From Clostridiales bacterium (GTDB lineage: Bacteria > Bacillota > Clostridia > Caldicoprobacterales > UBA3941): 40,297 bases of DNA. The translations under genes and the position numbers were made by a program. The notes beneath the pieces were generated by a model that worked only from the letters and a program-made list of their open reading frames with translations, did not search any database and had not been told where the DNA came from. Positions 9,153 through 34,979 of the stretch are shown here, in pieces (positions within the stretch are counted from its first letter, which is position 1; every line of letters starts with the position of its first letter). Location: positions 1-40,297 of the forward strand of contig JAAYRX010000144.1 of assembly GCA_012518535.1 (NCBI GenBank), written 5' to 3'.

Positions 9153-10403
9153 CTATGGTAAGAATCCTCGCATCAGGTCATCCAAGGTATCCCTGCGTCT
9201 TATTAGAACATCCTTACCCTCCGCTGTTATGAGGACTTCGGCAGGTCTAAGCCGGCTGTTGTAGTTGGAGGACATACAATAGCCATATGCACCGGCGTCC
9301 ACTATACCTATAATGTCCCCTTCAGCAATTTCCGGGAGAAGCCTGTCTCGGGCAATTATATCCCCGCTTTCACAGATATTGCCGACTATGGTAACCTTAT
9401 TATAATTTTTTTCAAGACAGTTTTCATTTATTTTATATACTTCAATATCATGATGAGCATCATATAACATAGGACGAGCCAAAACGTTGAAACCAATGTC
9501 TGTTCCAATATAGCTCGTACTATGATTTTCCTTAATGGTGTGTACCTTACCCAAAACCACCCCCGATTCCGCCACAATATAGCGGCCGGGTTCAACTATG
9601 AACTCTACCTGCTTTCCGTATTCCTTAGCCCAATTCTCCAGGATCGGGGAAAGTTTTTTACCGAAATTCCTAAGATCGAGCCGTGGCTCATTCTCCTGTT
9701 TTCGATAAGGTATGCCAAATCCACCGCCTATGTCTATAAAATCCAAATCGGAAAATTCTTTGGCAACAGACAGCAAAAGTTTTGCGCCTTCAATAAAGAC
9801 GTCTCCCTCCATAAACAAGGACCCCAAATGATGGTTAATCCCCACTATTTTTAGTTCGTATTTCCTGGCAATCTCCTTTACCCTGGGGATAAGCTCCAGG
9901 TCTATACCAAACTTGGTATCATCACCAGCGGTTATTACTTTTTTATGATGGCCTACACCAAGACCGGGATTCAATCGAATGGATACGCTGCCGCCAGGGT
10001 TCATTTCACCGTACTGCTCCAATTGGGAAAGTGAATCTATGCTTATTAGAATCCCCTTGTCTATGATAGTTCTCATCTCTTCTTTGGATATGTTATTGCT
10101 TATATAGAAGATTTCCTCGGGCTTATAACCGGCTTCCAGCAGTATATGCACTTCACCTGGGGAAATGGCATCGGCATGGATTCCTTCCTGACGAATTATC
10201 CTTAAAAGTTCCAGATTAGTATTGGCCTTGCAAGAATAATTGACTGAAAAACGGGGATATGAAACCAAGGATACCATCTCCCGGCATCTCTGCCTAAGGA
10301 TAGATTCGTTATAGACATATAGAGGGCTGCCGTATTTTTTGATCAACTCCCTTGGTGATGTATTACCATAAAAACTGATTAGGCTGGTAAAATAATTGTC
10401 CAT
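9153..10403 (-). CDS. lysA: Diaminopimelate decarboxylase
   Basis: A 416-residue PLP enzyme that decarboxylates meso-diaminopimelate to lysine, the last step of lysine synthesis. It has the group IV decarboxylase barrel and beta domain. The PLP lysine is Lys59 in NYSCKANTN; also seen are HHLGS, the phosphate-binding IGGGFGIPY, EPGRYIV, the cross-site GNICESGD and VDAGAYGYCMSSNYNSR. GGAGG lies 9 nt before the ATG. It is divergent from comM and upstream of degV. The 338-nt region before it holds alternative hairpins but no lysine riboswitch that I can recognise. Confidence 0.95.
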   Translation of the reverse strand: MDNYFTSLISFYGNTSPRELIKKYGSPLYVYNESILRQRCREMVSLVSYPRFSVNYSCKANTNLELLRIIRQEGIHADAISPGEVHILLEAGYKPEEIFYISNNISKEEMRTIIDKGILISIDSLSQLEQYGEMNPGGSVSIRLNPGLGVGHHKKVITAGDDTKFGIDLELIPRVKEIARKYELKIVGINHHLGSLFMEGDVFIEGAKLLLSVAKEFSDLDFIDIGGGFGIPYRKQENEPRLDLRNFGKKLSPILENWAKEYGKQVEFIVEPGRYIVAESGVVLGKVHTIKENHSTSYIGTDIGFNVLARPMLYDAHHDIEVYKINENCLEKNYNKVTIVGNICESGDIIARDRLLPEIAEGDIIGIVDAGAYGYCMSSNYNSRLRPAEVLITAEGKDVLIRRRDTLDDLMRGFLP

Positions 10404-20214: not shown

Positions 20215-20382
20215 ACGATGGGTTTATTTACCTCGTAACGAACTAATCTATTAACTGATATCCACATCCCTTGAACAATGAATTTATTGAAATGCTCGTA
20301 TTGGTATAAGTTAGGATAAGGATACACATAATAAGTTGGCAATGATCAGATTGCAAAAATACGAGCAAAAGGGAAGATAAAA

Positions 20383-22812
20383 ATGAAAGGTATTATTATG
20401 GCGGGTGGAGCTGGGTCTAGACTTCGGCCGCTTACTTGTGATTTGCCAAAACCCATGGTGCCGGTGATGAACAGGCCGGTTATGCAATATAGCATCGACC
20501 TTTTCAGGAAGTACGGGATAAATGTTATTGGGGCCACCCTCCAATACCTCCCAGGGATGATTCAGGAATATTTTGGAGGCGGGGAACAGGATTCAATAAG
20601 TCTGCATTATTTTATAGAGGATAGGCCTTTGGGAACGGCAGGTAGTGTGAAAAATGCACAAGAGATTTTAGATGATACCTTTATAGTATTAAGCGGTGAT
20701 GCACTAACCAATATTGACTTGGAGAAGGCTGTAGAGTTTCACAGAAAAAACCAATCCATAGCCACCCTGGTACTCAAGAAAGTCGAAATACCCTTAGAAT
20801 ATGGGGTAGTGATGACCCAGGAGGATGGGAGAATAGTCAGATTCCTCGAAAAGCCTGGTTGGGGGGAGGTCTTTAGTGATACAGTGAACACCGGGATTTA
20901 TATATTGGAGCCCCAGGTACTGGAATATTTTGAACCAGGTGTAAAGTTTGATTTTAGCAGGGATCTTTTTCCCAGATTACTTGAGGATAAGCAGCCCATG
21001 TTTGGCTACGTAACCGAGGAATACTGGTGCGATGTGGGGGATACCAACTCATATCTGCAGGCCCACTTTGATATAATGGATGGAAGCGTAGGGTTCAAGC
21101 CTGATGCCAAGGAGATCGAAGACGGTATATGGGTGGAGGAAGGGGTTTATATACACCCAAGCGCTAAACTTGAAGCGCCTTGCTACATAGGCAGAAACAC
21201 GAGGATAGAGGAAGGGGTCAATCTACATCCATTTACGGTTATTGGTGAAAATAATTGTATTGGAAAATACTCCAGCATTAAGAGAAGTGTATTGTGGAAC
21301 CACAATAATATAGGTAGGAACGTGGAGATCAGAGGCACTATCCTCTGTGATAATACACGTATTGGCAACGATTGTAGTATTTTTGAGGGCTGCGCTGTAG
21401 GGAAGAATACCTATTTGCAGGAAAGAGTCGTCCTGAGACCGGACATAAAGATATGGCCCTGTAAAACAATAGAACAGGGCATGGTGATAGATGAGAACAT
21501 AATATGGGGAACCCGGTTTAGAAGAACCTTCTTTGGGAAGGATGGTATCAGGGGTTGTTTTAATACTGAAATAGATGCCAGGTTTGTAAATCGCTTGGGG
21601 ATAGCCTATGGAACAGAGCTGCAAGGAGGTAGCAGGGTATGTATCAGCTCCAACAGGCATAATGCGGCCATAATGTTAAAGCATGGATTGATGGCGGGTA
21701 TGCTTGCCTCCGGGTTGAAGATCTTTGATATAGGCAGTACAATAACACCTGTGGCCAGGTATGCCGTTAGATATCTGGGCTTGGATGGTGGGATTCATAT
21801 TCGATGTGAGGATGATGAACCGGATAGGGTCCATCTTAGTCTGATTGATAAGAATGGTGCAAATCTGCCCGATTCTATGGAACGAAAGATCGAGAACATG
21901 TTTCTTAGCGGAGATTTCTCCATAAAGCCTCCAAGCGGTATAGAGAAGGTTAGTAGGATAAACGATATACCCATGTTTTACATCAGACATCTGATCAATT
22001 TCATTGATGCCGAAGCAATAAAGCAGAGAAATTACAGGATCTTAGTGGATACACAAAGTAAATACCTGGCTTCGATGTTTAGGGATATAACCAGGGATCT
22101 GGACTGTCTGGTGGACATTAAAAAGGAACAGATAAAGGATGATGAATCGATCCAGGGATATGACCTGACTATCCGATTCGACGACGATGGAGAGAGACTA
22201 CAGATCTTTGACGAAAGGGGAGAACCCATAAAAGAGGGGACTATGGCAGCCTTAATCAGCTTGGTATGTTTTAAGCAGGATAAGGATGTAGAGGTTGTAA
22301 TCCCCTATACAGCCCCAAATGCCATAGAAAAAATGGCGGAGTTCTATCAAAGCAGCGTTATAAGAACTAAAACCAAAAAACGCGCCATGATGGAAGAAGT
22401 TATTAGGATTGGGGATAGTAACAAGCGAAAGGCCATGGAACGCTTTATCCTATATTTTGACGGATTAGCCACCGTAATGGGTATAATGGATTTGATGGCT
22501 AGGGAAGATAAGGGGCTTTCCCACCTGGTTAAGGATCTACCTGAGATTCACATGTCCATAAGGGACATTAAATGCCCTTGGTCGGCAAAGGGTAAAGTAA
22601 TGAGGGGTTTGATCGACGAAGCAAACAGAAAAGATTCTGACATAGAGTTGTTTGAAGGAATTAAAATTAATAACGAAAAGGGATGGGCCTTAATATTGCC
22701 GGATCCCGATGAACCTTTGGTTAAGGTATACAGCGAAGGATTTTCAGAGGAATATGCAGAGGAACTAAGCGATTTTTATGAGAAGCGAATTAACGGGATA
22801 AAGGAAGAATAA
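20383..22812 (+). CDS. Sugar-1-phosphate nucleotidyltransferase fused to a degenerate phosphomutase domain
   Basis: An 809-residue three-domain protein. Residues 1-235 are a nucleotidyltransferase with AGGAGSRLRPLTCDLPKPMVPV and the metal-binding LSGDALTNID. Residues 250-370 are left-handed beta-helix hexapeptide repeats. Residues 380-805 resemble alpha-D-phosphohexomutases (GKDGIRGCFN, then DGGIHIRCEDDEPDRVHLSLID). The catalytic TASHNP serine loop is replaced by IRCEDDEPD (473-481), and the DGDGDR metal loop reads DDDGER (600-605), so mutase activity is doubtful. Similar fusions are known in Firmicutes and cyanobacteria. The sugar (glucose or mannose) cannot be told. GGGA precedes the ATG. 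A strong terminator follows. Confidence 0.88.
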   Translation: MKGIIMAGGAGSRLRPLTCDLPKPMVPVMNRPVMQYSIDLFRKYGINVIGATLQYLPGMIQEYFGGGEQDSISLHYFIEDRPLGTAGSVKNAQEILDDTFIVLSGDALTNIDLEKAVEFHRKNQSIATLVLKKVEIPLEYGVVMTQEDGRIVRFLEKPGWGEVFSDTVNTGIYILEPQVLEYFEPGVKFDFSRDLFPRLLEDKQPMFGYVTEEYWCDVGDTNSYLQAHFDIMDGSVGFKPDAKEIEDGIWVEEGVYIHPSAKLEAPCYIGRNTRIEEGVNLHPFTVIGENNCIGKYSSIKRSVLWNHNNIGRNVEIRGTILCDNTRIGNDCSIFEGCAVGKNTYLQERVVLRPDIKIWPCKTIEQGMVIDENIIWGTRFRRTFFGKDGIRGCFNTEIDARFVNRLGIAYGTELQGGSRVCISSNRHNAAIMLKHGLMAGMLASGLKIFDIGSTITPVARYAVRYLGLDGGIHIRCEDDEPDRVHLSLIDKNGANLPDSMERKIENMFLSGDFSIKPPSGIEKVSRINDIPMFYIRHLINFIDAEAIKQRNYRILVDTQSKYLASMFRDITRDLDCLVDIKKEQIKDDESIQGYDLTIRFDDDGERLQIFDERGEPIKEGTMAALISLVCFKQDKDVEVVIPYTAPNAIEKMAEFYQSSVIRTKTKKRAMMEEVIRIGDSNKRKAMERFILYFDGLATVMGIMDLMAREDKGLSHLVKDLPEIHMSIRDIKCPWSAKGKVMRGLIDEANRKDSDIELFEGIKINNEKGWALILPDPDEPLVKVYSEGFSEEYAEELSDFYEKRINGIKEE

Positions 22813-26207: not shown

Positions 26208-27443
26208 ATGTCGATTAGAAAACCGGAATTGTTGGCACCTGCAGGCAACCTGGAGAAACTAAAAGTAGCCTTTGCTTATGGGGCTGATGCAGTATATATG
26301 GCGGGAAAACGCTTTGGTCTCCGTGCCTTTGCAGGGAACTTTCAGAAGGATGAAATTCAGGAAGCAGTAGAATATGCCCATTCCATAAACAAAAAAGTAT
26401 ATGTCACAATGAATATCTTCGCTCATAACGAGGATTTTAAGGATATGGACAAATATATGAGATATCTGGCGGATATAGAAGTAGACGCAGTCATAATCTC
26501 GGATCCGGGGATCTTATCCCTGGCCCGTGAAATAATGCCCAACATACCAATCCACATGAGCACACAAGCAAATAATACTAATTGGCGTAGCGCTAATTTT
26601 TGGCATCAGCAAGGGGTCAGCCGAATTATCCTGGCAAGGGAGCTATCCTTAAAGGAGATATCCGAGATTAGGGCCAAGACACCGGATACCTTGGAACTGG
26701 AAGCTTTTGTCCATGGTGCCATGTGCATATCCTATTCCGGCAGGTGTCTTTTAAGCAATGTCTTTACCGGTCGTGATGCTAACAGAGGGCAATGCGCTCA
26801 TCCCTGCCGTTGGAAATACTCAATCGTGGAAGAAAAAAGGCCTGGTGAATATTATCCCGTTCTTGAAGATGACCGGGGAACATATATAATGAACTCCAAG
26901 GATCTTTGTATGCTGGAGCATATCCCAGAGCTTTTAAATGCGGGAATTGATGGATATAAGATTGAAGGCAGGATGAAATCCAGCTATTATGTGGCAACGG
27001 TAGTACAAGCATACCGCAGGGAAATTGATGATTACTTAAAGGATCAGGAAACTTATATGTGGGACCCTGAAAGAATGGATGAGATAAAGAAGGTCAGTCA
27101 CAGGGCTTTTACAACTGGGTTCTATTTCAGGAAACCGGCAGGTGAAGATCATCAATACTCAGATAGCAGTTATATCCGGAACTATGATTTTGTGGGGATG
27201 GTATTGGGGTATGATGAGGGTCGCGGACTGATAGAGGTAGAGCAGCGGAATGCTTTTGGGATAGGGGATTCCCTTGAGATAATGGTGCCTGGTGAAGACT
27301 ACCTTGATTATACGGTTACTACTATATTGGATGAGGAAGGAAGATTAATTGATCGAGCCCCTCATCCCCAACAGAAGATATTTTTGCCTCTTGATAGAAA
27401 TGTTGGGAAATACTCCATCCTGAGAAGGAAACAAGGTATATAG
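26208..27443 (+). CDS. trhP: U32 peptidase family protein (TrhP-like, tRNA uridine hydroxylation)
   Basis: A 411-residue protein annotated historically as a U32 peptidase. Members of this subgroup (B. subtilis YrrO, E. coli YegQ) are needed for 5-hydroxyuridine at tRNA position 34. Seen: ELLAPAGNLEKLKVAFAYGADAVYMAG at the N-terminus, and the U32 signature EAFVHGAMCISYSGRCLLSN, then GRDANRGQCAHPCRW, with four cysteines likely to bind an Fe-S cluster. GYKIEGRMKSSYYVA is also typical. GGGGG lies before the ATG. It follows mltG, a known neighbour. No clear terminator separates it from sigK. Confidence 0.88.
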   Translation: MSIRKPELLAPAGNLEKLKVAFAYGADAVYMAGKRFGLRAFAGNFQKDEIQEAVEYAHSINKKVYVTMNIFAHNEDFKDMDKYMRYLADIEVDAVIISDPGILSLAREIMPNIPIHMSTQANNTNWRSANFWHQQGVSRIILARELSLKEISEIRAKTPDTLELEAFVHGAMCISYSGRCLLSNVFTGRDANRGQCAHPCRWKYSIVEEKRPGEYYPVLEDDRGTYIMNSKDLCMLEHIPELLNAGIDGYKIEGRMKSSYYVATVVQAYRREIDDYLKDQETYMWDPERMDEIKKVSHRAFTTGFYFRKPAGEDHQYSDSSYIRNYDFVGMVLGYDEGRGLIEVEQRNAFGIGDSLEIMVPGEDYLDYTVTTILDEEGRLIDRAPHPQQKIFLPLDRNVGKYSILRRKQGI

Positions 27444-27517
27444 AAGATATCTTTGGCCCCACTGTCAAAGGCGGTAATATTTTACTGGGTTTTATCCACT
27501 AAGAAATTAGGCCATGC

Positions 27518-27545
27518 ACTTTTTCAGCACCTCCATCATAGGATA
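27518..27545 (+). promoter_or_regulatory. Possible SigK-type promoter of sigK
   Basis: AC at 27518-27519, 17 bp, then CATAGGATA (27537-27545), which fits the SigK -10 pattern CATA-N3-TA. These short degenerate motifs are weak evidence. If real, the transcript would begin inside the loop of the inverted repeat at 27525-27575. Confidence 0.35.
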
Positions 27546-27575
27546 TAAGACCATCATCTTTATTTGGAGGTGCTG
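27525..27575 (+). promoter_or_regulatory. Inverted repeat that can sequester the sigK ribosome binding site
   Basis: CAGCACCTCCA (27525-27535) and TGGAGGTGCTG (27565-27575) are perfect 11-bp reverse complements separated by a 29-nt loop. The right arm contains the whole GGAGGT Shine-Dalgarno of sigK, which ends 8 nt before its ATG. No T-tract follows, so this is not a terminator. Confidence 0.7.
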
Positions 27576-27579
27576 TCTT

Positions 27580-28293
27580 ATGCTTATCGCTGCCGGTGGT
27601 ATAGTTTCATTTCTAAAGTGCATCTATTTCTTGGCTTCTCATGTATTGGGCACCCATTCATTTCCTCAACCTCTTACACCGGAAGAGGAAGCCTATCATA
27701 TTGAACTCTGTACTCAGGGGTCGGAGGAATCAAAGAACATCCTAATAGAACACAATTTAAGACTGGTTGCCCACATAGTTAAAAAATATGCCAACACCGG
27801 CAAGGAAGTGGATGACCTTATATCTATTGGCACCATTGGACTTATAAAGGCAATATCAACCTTTAAACCCGAAAAAAAAACCAGGCTGGCTACCTATGCG
27901 GCCAGGTGTATTGAAAATGAAATACTCATGACCATACGGGCAGACAAAAAAACAAGGGGAGAAATCTCATTGCAAGATCCAATAGGCATAGACAAAGAGG
28001 GAAATGAAATATCCCTACTTGATGTGTTGGGAAGTGAAACCGATAGTGTTTTGGATGAGGTAGAATTAAAGCTTCAAATACGGAAGCTATACGAAAAAAT
28101 GCAATCAGTTTTGAAGCAACGGGAGAAAATGGTTCTCGAAATGCGTTATGGGCTCATTAACGGAAAGAACAAGACCCAAAGGGAAATCGCTCAGATATTG
28201 GGAATTTCCAGGTCCTATGTCTCCAGGATTGAAAAGAAGGCCATAATGAAATTGGGTAAGGAATTCAATAGCGATGGCTTTGGAATTAGTTGA
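27580..28293 (+). CDS. sigK: RNA polymerase sporulation sigma factor SigK
   Basis: A 237-residue sigma-70 family factor that drives late mother-cell gene expression. Seen: region 2 (NLRLVAHIVKKYANTGKEVDDLISIGTIGLIKAI, ATYAARCIENEILM), the family-specific LQDPIGIDKEGNEISLLDVL, and region 4 (TQREIAQILGISRSYVSRIEKKA). The hydrophobic N-terminus MLIAAGGIVSFLKCIYFLASHVLG resembles the pro-sequence removed by SpoIVFB, so it is probably made as pro-SigK. The track start at 27514 is replaced by ATG 27580, 8 nt after GGAGGT. The gene is intact, without a skin-like insertion. An inverted repeat covers its ribosome binding site. Confidence 0.95.
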   Translation: MLIAAGGIVSFLKCIYFLASHVLGTHSFPQPLTPEEEAYHIELCTQGSEESKNILIEHNLRLVAHIVKKYANTGKEVDDLISIGTIGLIKAISTFKPEKKTRLATYAARCIENEILMTIRADKKTRGEISLQDPIGIDKEGNEISLLDVLGSETDSVLDEVELKLQIRKLYEKMQSVLKQREKMVLEMRYGLINGKNKTQREIAQILGISRSYVSRIEKKAIMKLGKEFNSDGFGIS

Positions 28294-29884: not shown

Positions 29885-30162
29885 GTGCGATGAAGGAGAC
29901 CAGTAGATCGAAAACCAGTGTAAAGAGAGGGTAGGCCGTAGGCTGAAAGCCTTCCCCAACAGGTTCGATTGAATACCAACTCCGAAGCTAATGGCTAGTC
30001 CCCTTACAGACTATTAAGCTGGATTTCGAGAAATTCTGTATACGGCTATTGCCAACAGAGTATGCTTTATAAGAATACTCTTTGGATAAACCGTTGCAAG
30101 GATAGAAATCAACAAGGGTGGAACCGCGGGTCATCCCCGTCCTTTGGAGGACGGGGATTTTT
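29885..30162 (+). ncRNA. T-box riboswitch (threonine) upstream of thrS
   Basis: A transcription-attenuation leader that senses uncharged tRNA-Thr. Stem I is closed by GGAG (29895-29898) and CTCC (29980-29983); the specifier in GAATACCAACTCC is ACC (29975-29977), a threonine codon. The T-box sequence AGGGTGGAACCGCGGG lies at about 30114-30129. The terminator is CCCCGTCCT/AGGACGGGG (30135-30156) followed by ATTTTT. Uncharged tRNA-Thr would pair with the UGGA bulge and favour the antiterminator, raising thrS expression. Confidence 0.93.
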
Positions 30163-32236: not shown

Positions 32237-32244
32237 ATATCTGG

Positions 32245-32362
32245 CTAAAGAAGAAGTTATCCACTTCTCACCTTTCGGCATTGCCAGGAAGGTTAACACC
32301 ATTTAATCTATGCTAGATTTAAATGAGTTATTTAGAGTGGGTGGAAACTGCCCACTTTTTTT
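32245..32362 (+). ncRNA. infC-rpmI-rplT leader (L20-leader-like) with attenuator
   Basis: The leader starts with a hairpin AGAAGT/ACTTCT (32252-32268), then ACCTT...AAGGT enclosing GGC/GCC, then a TTTAATCTA/TAGATTTAAA stem, and ends in a terminator AGTGGG/CCCACT with a T-run (32336-32362). It resembles in layout, and in its CCACTTCTCACCTTTCGGCA segment, the Bacillus infC leader bound by ribosomal protein L20, which represses the operon by premature termination. Assignment rests on position and appearance only. Confidence 0.65.
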
Positions 32363-32491
32363 GTTGTTTGGATTTATTAAAGGTTGAGATCTTTAGATCC
32401 ATCGTCGTAAAATCAGAGCATTTTTCTTGTACGTAATCAAGGTGGGTAAGAAATAATATAAACGTTAAAAAAATAGCGGAGGTGAATGAAT

Positions 32492-34653: not shown

Positions 34654-34743
34654 GTGTTGGCTGATGCTATATGGAAGATATTCGAAGCTACGGGTTCCGT
34701 TTCTGCCTATATGCTTTACAAAAAATTAATAACCCTGGAATAA
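34654..34743 (+). CDS. yqzL: YqzL-family small protein, 29 residues
   Basis: A short gene absent from the ORF track. Translation from GTG 34654 gives MLADAIWKIFEATGSVSAYMLYKKLITLE and stop (shown here as one short protein in two parts: MLADAIWKIFEATGS and VSAYMLYKKLITLE). The W-K-x-F-x-x-T-G-S-x-x-A-Y-x-L-Y-K pattern matches small YqzL-like proteins as I recall them from Firmicutes. AAAGGAG lies 10 nt upstream. It sits downstream of the promoter at 34483 and ends 10 nt before the first T-box stem, so it should be transcribed regardless of tRNA-Phe charging. Function unknown. Confidence 0.7.
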   Translation: MLADAIWKIFEATGSVSAYMLYKKLITLE

Positions 34744-34744
34744 A

Positions 34745-34979
34745 GGCAATGATGGAGAAGAGTACATTCTACCTTGTTATTCAGAGAGGGGATGTCATGG
34801 GCTGGAAGCATCCCTATAATCGGAGATTGGAAGTTCGCTCCTGAGCTGTAGGCTGAAGTGGTAGTAGGTCTGACCGGTGTAGCCGTTATAGTTATACGAG
34901 GTTTGGTTTACACAAACAAACTTGGGTGGTACCACGGAAAAGTTACCTCCGTCCCATGATTAGGGATGGAGGTTTTATT
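34745..34979 (+). ncRNA. T-box riboswitch (phenylalanine) upstream of pheST
   Basis: Stem I is closed by GGAG (34754-34757) and CTCC (34838-34841); the specifier in GGAAGTTCGCTCC is TTC (34834-34836), a phenylalanine codon. The T-box sequence GGGTGGTACCACGG lies at 34924-34937. The terminator is ACCTCCGTCCC (34945-34955) with GGGATGGAGGT (34963-34973) followed by TTTATTT. Uncharged tRNA-Phe should relieve termination and raise pheST expression. Confidence 0.92.

Follow-up and report, generated by a model that had tools for sequence, protein, structure and literature searches.

The question raised by this locus is how sigK, the autoregulated gene of a late, mother-cell sigma factor, can lie beside a vegetative gene without being fired from there. 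In the window, by which we mean the whole analysed stretch of 40,297 nucleotides, a co-directional gene of the U32/TrhP family ends 72 nt ahead of the -35 element of the sigK promoter, and the preliminary description had stated that no terminator separates the two genes. A scan for terminator-like sites agrees, as nothing convincing was found in the gap between them; it holds a single weak site (27461-27475), and the region as a whole has three such sites versus 2.6 expected. The features of the locus are as follows.

26208 to 27443, + strand: co-directional gene of the U32/TrhP family (433 bits, under the curated cut-off of 534), a possible source of read-through RNA
27516 to 27519, + strand: -35 element GCAC (AC at 27518-27519) of a SigK-type promoter, assigned by sequence and by GCAC-17-CATA being present in most of 182 sigK loci
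27525 to 27535, + strand: left arm CAGCACCTCCA, an anti-Shine-Dalgarno sequence within the -35/-10 spacer, where complementarity to the own leader is kept while the sequence changes
27536 to 27564, + strand: 29-nt loop with a predicted transcription start at about 27552, placed from the position of the -10 element; the P2 start of Clostridioides difficile sigK is at -26 (PMC3789822)
27537 to 27545, + strand: -10 element CATAGGATA, assigned by sequence and conservation in sigK loci
27565 to 27575, + strand: right arm TGGAGGTGCTG, which includes the Shine-Dalgarno (SD) sequence GGAGG (27566-27570), assigned by sequence and by the cost of opening SD to start codon
27580 to 28293, + strand: sigK, 237 amino acids with a pro-sequence-like N-terminus (TIGR02846, 356 bits, cut-off 299)

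The inverted repeat, described beforehand as two perfect 11-bp arms around a 29-nt loop with the sigK SD in the right arm, is confirmed to the base; the arms pair without mismatch and the GGAGG, wholly contained in the right arm, stands 9 nt ahead of the ATG at 27580. The consensus of SigK promoters is AC-N16/17-CATANNNTA, and the earlier reading of AC-17-CATAGGATA as a SigK-type promoter with a start in the loop holds up likewise, with GCAC-17-CATAGGATA being a full match to this consensus and the start placed in the loop by its sequence. A 201-nt RNA around the hairpin (from 27440) folds with z = -4.6, and an RNA begun at 27552 in the loop folds no better than its shuffles (z = -0.3). No Rfam leader or riboswitch matches above gathering score between 26000 and 29000. 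In a separate observation, the stretch ahead of the sigK promoter is bracketed by TTGGCC (27453-27458) and GGCCA (27510-27514), a pair that is eroded in the window and the counterpart of which in a congener is a 10-bp perfect repeat, TTGGCCTATT/AATAGGCCAA.

We propose that sigK probably possesses a translation lock dependent on the origin of the transcript. An RNA begun 5' of the SigK-type promoter, be it by read-through from the neighbour, by stray transcription or at an early SigE promoter, would contain the anti-SD arm encoded in the -35/-10 spacer, and this arm would pair with the ribosome-binding site and prevent translation. RNA from the sigK promoter would start in the loop, lack the left arm and hence be translatable; SigK production would be limited to the firing of its own mother-cell promoter, and the autoregulatory loop of SigK would be protected from leaky transcription. 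We infer the start in this organism, the existence of the long RNA and the translational block. A hairpin that instead halts upstream RNA polymerase ahead of sigK would also shield the gene from upstream transcription, but the right arm is followed by TCTTATG and not by the U-run that completes, after a G+C-rich stem, an intrinsic terminator, nor is a terminator-like site called there, which makes such an insulator very unlikely.

The repeat could also reflect chance, with pyrimidine-rich spacers happening to pair with purine-rich SDs. Four perfect inverted repeats with arms of 11 bp or longer and a loop of up to 60 nt occur in the window, versus 0.57 expected, and the sigK site is thus not unique, although it is the only one of the four to cover an SD at proper distance from a gene start; because of this surplus, a chance argument from the single genome is marginal. 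Elsewhere in the window, a perfect 11-bp repeat (30133-30158) that has a short loop and a T-run lies shortly before a thrS-like gene and is apparently a terminator or attenuator, with no T-box match at gathering score at that position. Rfam matches over gathering score identify a T-box leader before pheS (34740-34959) and an L20 leader before infC (32242-32369), and a long-looped, perfect 10-bp inverted repeat (20293-20367) ends just 5' of the start, at 20383, of a nucleotidyltransferase/phosphomannomutase-like gene.

Comparison among relatives makes the case convincing. The genome of the window, a 2.1-Mb draft, belongs to a family represented here by six genomes and an order represented by 30. 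In all, 182 sigK loci were gathered, most of which have a GCAC-17-CATANNNTA-like promoter shortly 5' of sigK; 92 representatives were taken, with protein identity kept below 85%, and among these the promoter is strikingly conserved. The duplex between promoter spacer and leader has a mean of -11.6 kcal/mol for the own pairs of the 92 representatives versus -8.55 (sd 0.25) with leaders of other species (z = -12.4), the minimum of 20,000 partner-swapping permutations being -9.69 kcal/mol. Against swapped partners, z becomes -13.8 once the -35 element is included and -15.8 (n = 104) once the segments are widened by 16 nt on the upstream side and 40 nt into the coding sequence; because the species are related, permutation z-scores such as these overstate independence somewhat. 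In a test that shuffles only the spacer, p<=0.05 is attained at 32% of the loci and p<=0.01 at 14%; the controls attain p<=0.05 in 7% (stretch before the -35 element versus leader), 5% (stretch further upstream) and 8% (spacer versus first codons). Stems scoring at least 6 are found in 51 loci versus 22.4 +/- 3.8 under partner swapping. Examples, in all of which the left arm falls within the promoter spacer or next to it, are:

L118: AGAAATAGTGTTTC/GAAACACTATTTCT
L130: CCCATATTATGT/ACATAATATGGG
L018: TTTCCTTCAAA/TTTGAAGGGGA
L164: CCGAACTCTTTTT/AAAAAGAGTTCGG
L076 (Terrisporobacter): TAGAATAGTCAAC/GTTGACTATTCTA, the right arm including the TTG start codon

In 23 of 28 strong stems the right arm is at or beside the SD, and in some loci it lies in codons. 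The earlier claim that the hairpin hides the SD applies to the window and to most strong stems, but a minority abut the SD without covering it, as in L118 and L164, where the stem goes no further than the SD, which stays open. Conservation extends unevenly over the relatives, some clades lacking the stem: it is significant in 60% of loci of the own order, 32% of other Clostridia and the rest, 10% of Clostridium sensu stricto-like loci and 10% of Bacilli, and within the own family one genome (G005, locus L010) has no significant stem. In the sigK locus of a Thermosediminibacteraceae MAG (L042), a 14-bp perfect repeat, AGCCCAAAGTCATA/TATGACTTTGGGCT, has its right arm in the early codons, and SD and start codon lie in the loop. 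Hairpin-less Clostridium-like loci (L043, L044, L046, L155-L174) carry a strongly conserved leader motif, AATAAGCACT, just 5' of the SD, which may be another control element.

That the two arms should co-vary among relatives if the structure is functional had been put forward as a check, and the alignments of close relatives bear it out alongside the swapped partners. Between the window genome and its congener, 19 of 70 intergenic positions ahead of the promoter and 29% of the third codon positions of sigK differ, versus one of 22 arm positions, a C to T change that turns the outermost pair into G-U; another change, adjoining the arm, adds an A-U pair. In the gapless alignment of a sister family (L024, L026, L031, L028, L029), a 10-bp stem with CCCC/GGGG pairing to the SD has 95.7% of cells paired versus 30-51% in slid controls, and four pairs changed on both sides versus zero or one. 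The six genomes of the own family have 80.3% of cells paired versus 38-63% and a covariation score of 0.37 versus at most 0.23 in slid controls; both sets are small, and the permutation test is the stronger statistic. On this sequence evidence, the sigK hairpin is a real, conserved element.

Its predicted effect on the ribosome-binding site points in the same direction. In the window, opening the RNA from SD to start codon is predicted to cost 20.7 kcal/mol in the long RNA, 14.6 with the spacer shuffled and 7.6 in the promoter-started RNA; the predicted means of the 92 loci are 12.1, 10.2 and 6.7 kcal/mol (long versus shuffled, p = 3e-9). The probability of an unpaired SD follows with 0.22 (long), 0.26 (spacer shuffled) and 0.32 (promoter-started), a real but noisy difference of which the opening energy is the clearer measure. 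Within the order, the mother-cell genes spoIIID (6.7 vs 6.9) and spoIVA (7.6 vs 7.0), which served as negative controls, have no excess over shuffled upstream sequence, whereas sigK has 13.0 vs 7.9 in the same comparison (p = 1.3e-5). Partner swapping, which preserves the bias in composition and is far exceeded by the own pairs, the covariation and these negative control genes refute chance as a general explanation; it is hardly credible for the family of loci, though it could hold for single ones. A match to spoIIID, present without exception in the order's remaining 28 genomes, is absent from the window genome and its congener, which may be a gap because both drafts are just 83-86% complete.

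Which long RNA the lock would act on is a further question. The preliminary description had proposed a promoter-selective lock against vegetative read-through from the U32 gene; its promoter-selective part is sustained by the conserved internal promoter, the covariation and a ribosome-binding site predicted to be costly to open in the long RNA alone, but its target is not. Hairpins are found at 30% of loci with a divergent upstream gene (n = 23; thymidine kinase, YqeG, SpoVAC and RadC homologues among them, as named from translations) versus 32% with a near co-directional one (n = 57). As hairpins occur beside divergent genes, the target cannot consist only of read-through from co-directional neighbours, and as the direction of the upstream gene makes no difference, the specific vegetative version is unsupported by this test. 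Two starts have been mapped for sigK of C. difficile, at -67 (P1, SigE-like) and at -26 (P2, SigK-like) (PMC3789822; PMC5025042), the latter of which supports a start in the loop because its promoter resembles the conserved one in motif and position. By analogy, long RNA would be as likely to come from an upstream SigE promoter as from read-through of the neighbour. The lock may then mainly target an early SigE transcript from P1, translation waiting for P2 as used by SigE with SpoIIID and later by SigK, a relay to which we give somewhat less than even weight. It fits with the hairpins beside divergent genes and with Terrisporobacter, where the arm starts 69 nt ahead of the start codon and pairs over both SD and start codon; on the other hand, the sequence 5' of the conserved promoter has no enrichment in CATANNNT elements (15 observed, 20.5 expected), and the 72-nt intergenic stretch of the window shows none.

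The location of the repeat around the -10 element, which it straddles in most loci, would also suit a function at the level of DNA, as a protein-binding site or an extruded hairpin that controls the promoter, with the RNA fold a by-product. The wobble counts outside the SD, six G-U and six A-C, favour neither RNA nor DNA; an excess of G-U pairs is confined to the SD, which by itself skews the count. However, the arms are wholly different between families while their pairing is kept, unlike a sequence-specific site, and the right arm tends to the SD and sometimes to codons, as described above. A loop of 29 nt also disfavours hairpin extrusion, and we consider a DNA-level function improbable.

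The sigG gene of the same genomes has an excess in predicted opening cost like that of sigK (12.5 vs 6.3), a figure that comes from a separate analysis, as a fixed offset placed just four sigG starts in the comparison with spoIIID and spoIVA. Its promoter of the sigma-F/G type (GAATA ... GGNAATACTT) carries in the spacer a CCTCYGTCC opposite a GGAYGGAGG at the SD, and the anti-SD thereby has the same topology as in sigK. The element in the genome of the window is:

G000:C21, upstream of sigG at 10100 (L190/L002), - strand: anti-SD ACCTTGGTCCG in the promoter spacer, with relatives in L198-L221

The sigE-sigG stretch of this genome as a whole has no significant global fold (z = -1.6). For Bacillus subtilis sigG (spoIIIG), a hairpin of 20 or more bp has been proposed to keep read-through RNA from spoIIG-sigE untranslated and to be unable to form in the RNA of the own promoter (PMC5942855, which cites Masuda 1988 and Sun 1991), and the clostridial sigG design is its counterpart. 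A small 5-bp hairpin at the B. subtilis sigG ribosome-binding site, described in the same paper, works on RNA made from the sigG promoter itself and is a separate matter (PMC5942855). Like sigK, B. subtilis sigG is a sporulation sigma gene with a proposed hairpin in read-through RNA, but it lies behind sigE and encodes a forespore factor, whereas sigK encodes the mother-cell factor and differs in promoter type and neighbours. Tentatively, and with a little less than an even chance in our view, a translational checkpoint may be shared among many Clostridia, in which sigK RNA made early from a SigE promoter or by read-through would be locked and translatable RNA would come only from the SpoIIID/SigK-dependent promoter with the anti-SD in its spacer; with sigG likewise in the forespore, a lock built into the promoter would guard both late sigma factors against premature autoregulation.

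The kind of control is already known, while sigK is a new gene for it. In phage T4, the early long RNA of gene e (lysozyme) folds over SD or start and is translated about 100-fold less, and the late promoters are embedded in the DNA coding for the 5' strand, so that late RNA is made without this strand and is translated (PMC3014915). The architecture equals that of sigK and is a direct precedent, but gene e is a phage lysis gene served by a phage sigma factor with a measured effect, whereas sigK is a chromosomal, autoregulated developmental sigma gene with a predicted one. In IS10/IS50, read-through RNA folds over the transposase start and own-promoter RNA does not, which resembles sigK in the dependence on RNA origin, but these are mobile elements without a developmental switch. 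The control of SigK itself is a textbook subject: skin excision, transcription, cleavage of the pro-sequence and KapD mRNA decay, the last ranked as the fourth level in a 2025 paper, are described as levels of control; the accessible part of that paper names no hairpin at the ribosome-binding site among them (PMC11736430). All of these controls confine SigK to the mother cell and to a late stage, as the proposed lock would, but none of them blocks translation according to where the RNA starts. A search confined to the open literature found no mention of a sigK leader hairpin and no report of a translational level of SigK control set by the RNA start.

If true, the lock would explain how the gene of an autoregulated late sigma factor can stand beside vegetative genes without firing, and would provide one design common to sigK and sigG and a readily tested switch. 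It would also mean that a conserved RNA function can reside in the spacer between promoter elements, a stretch usually regarded as filler.
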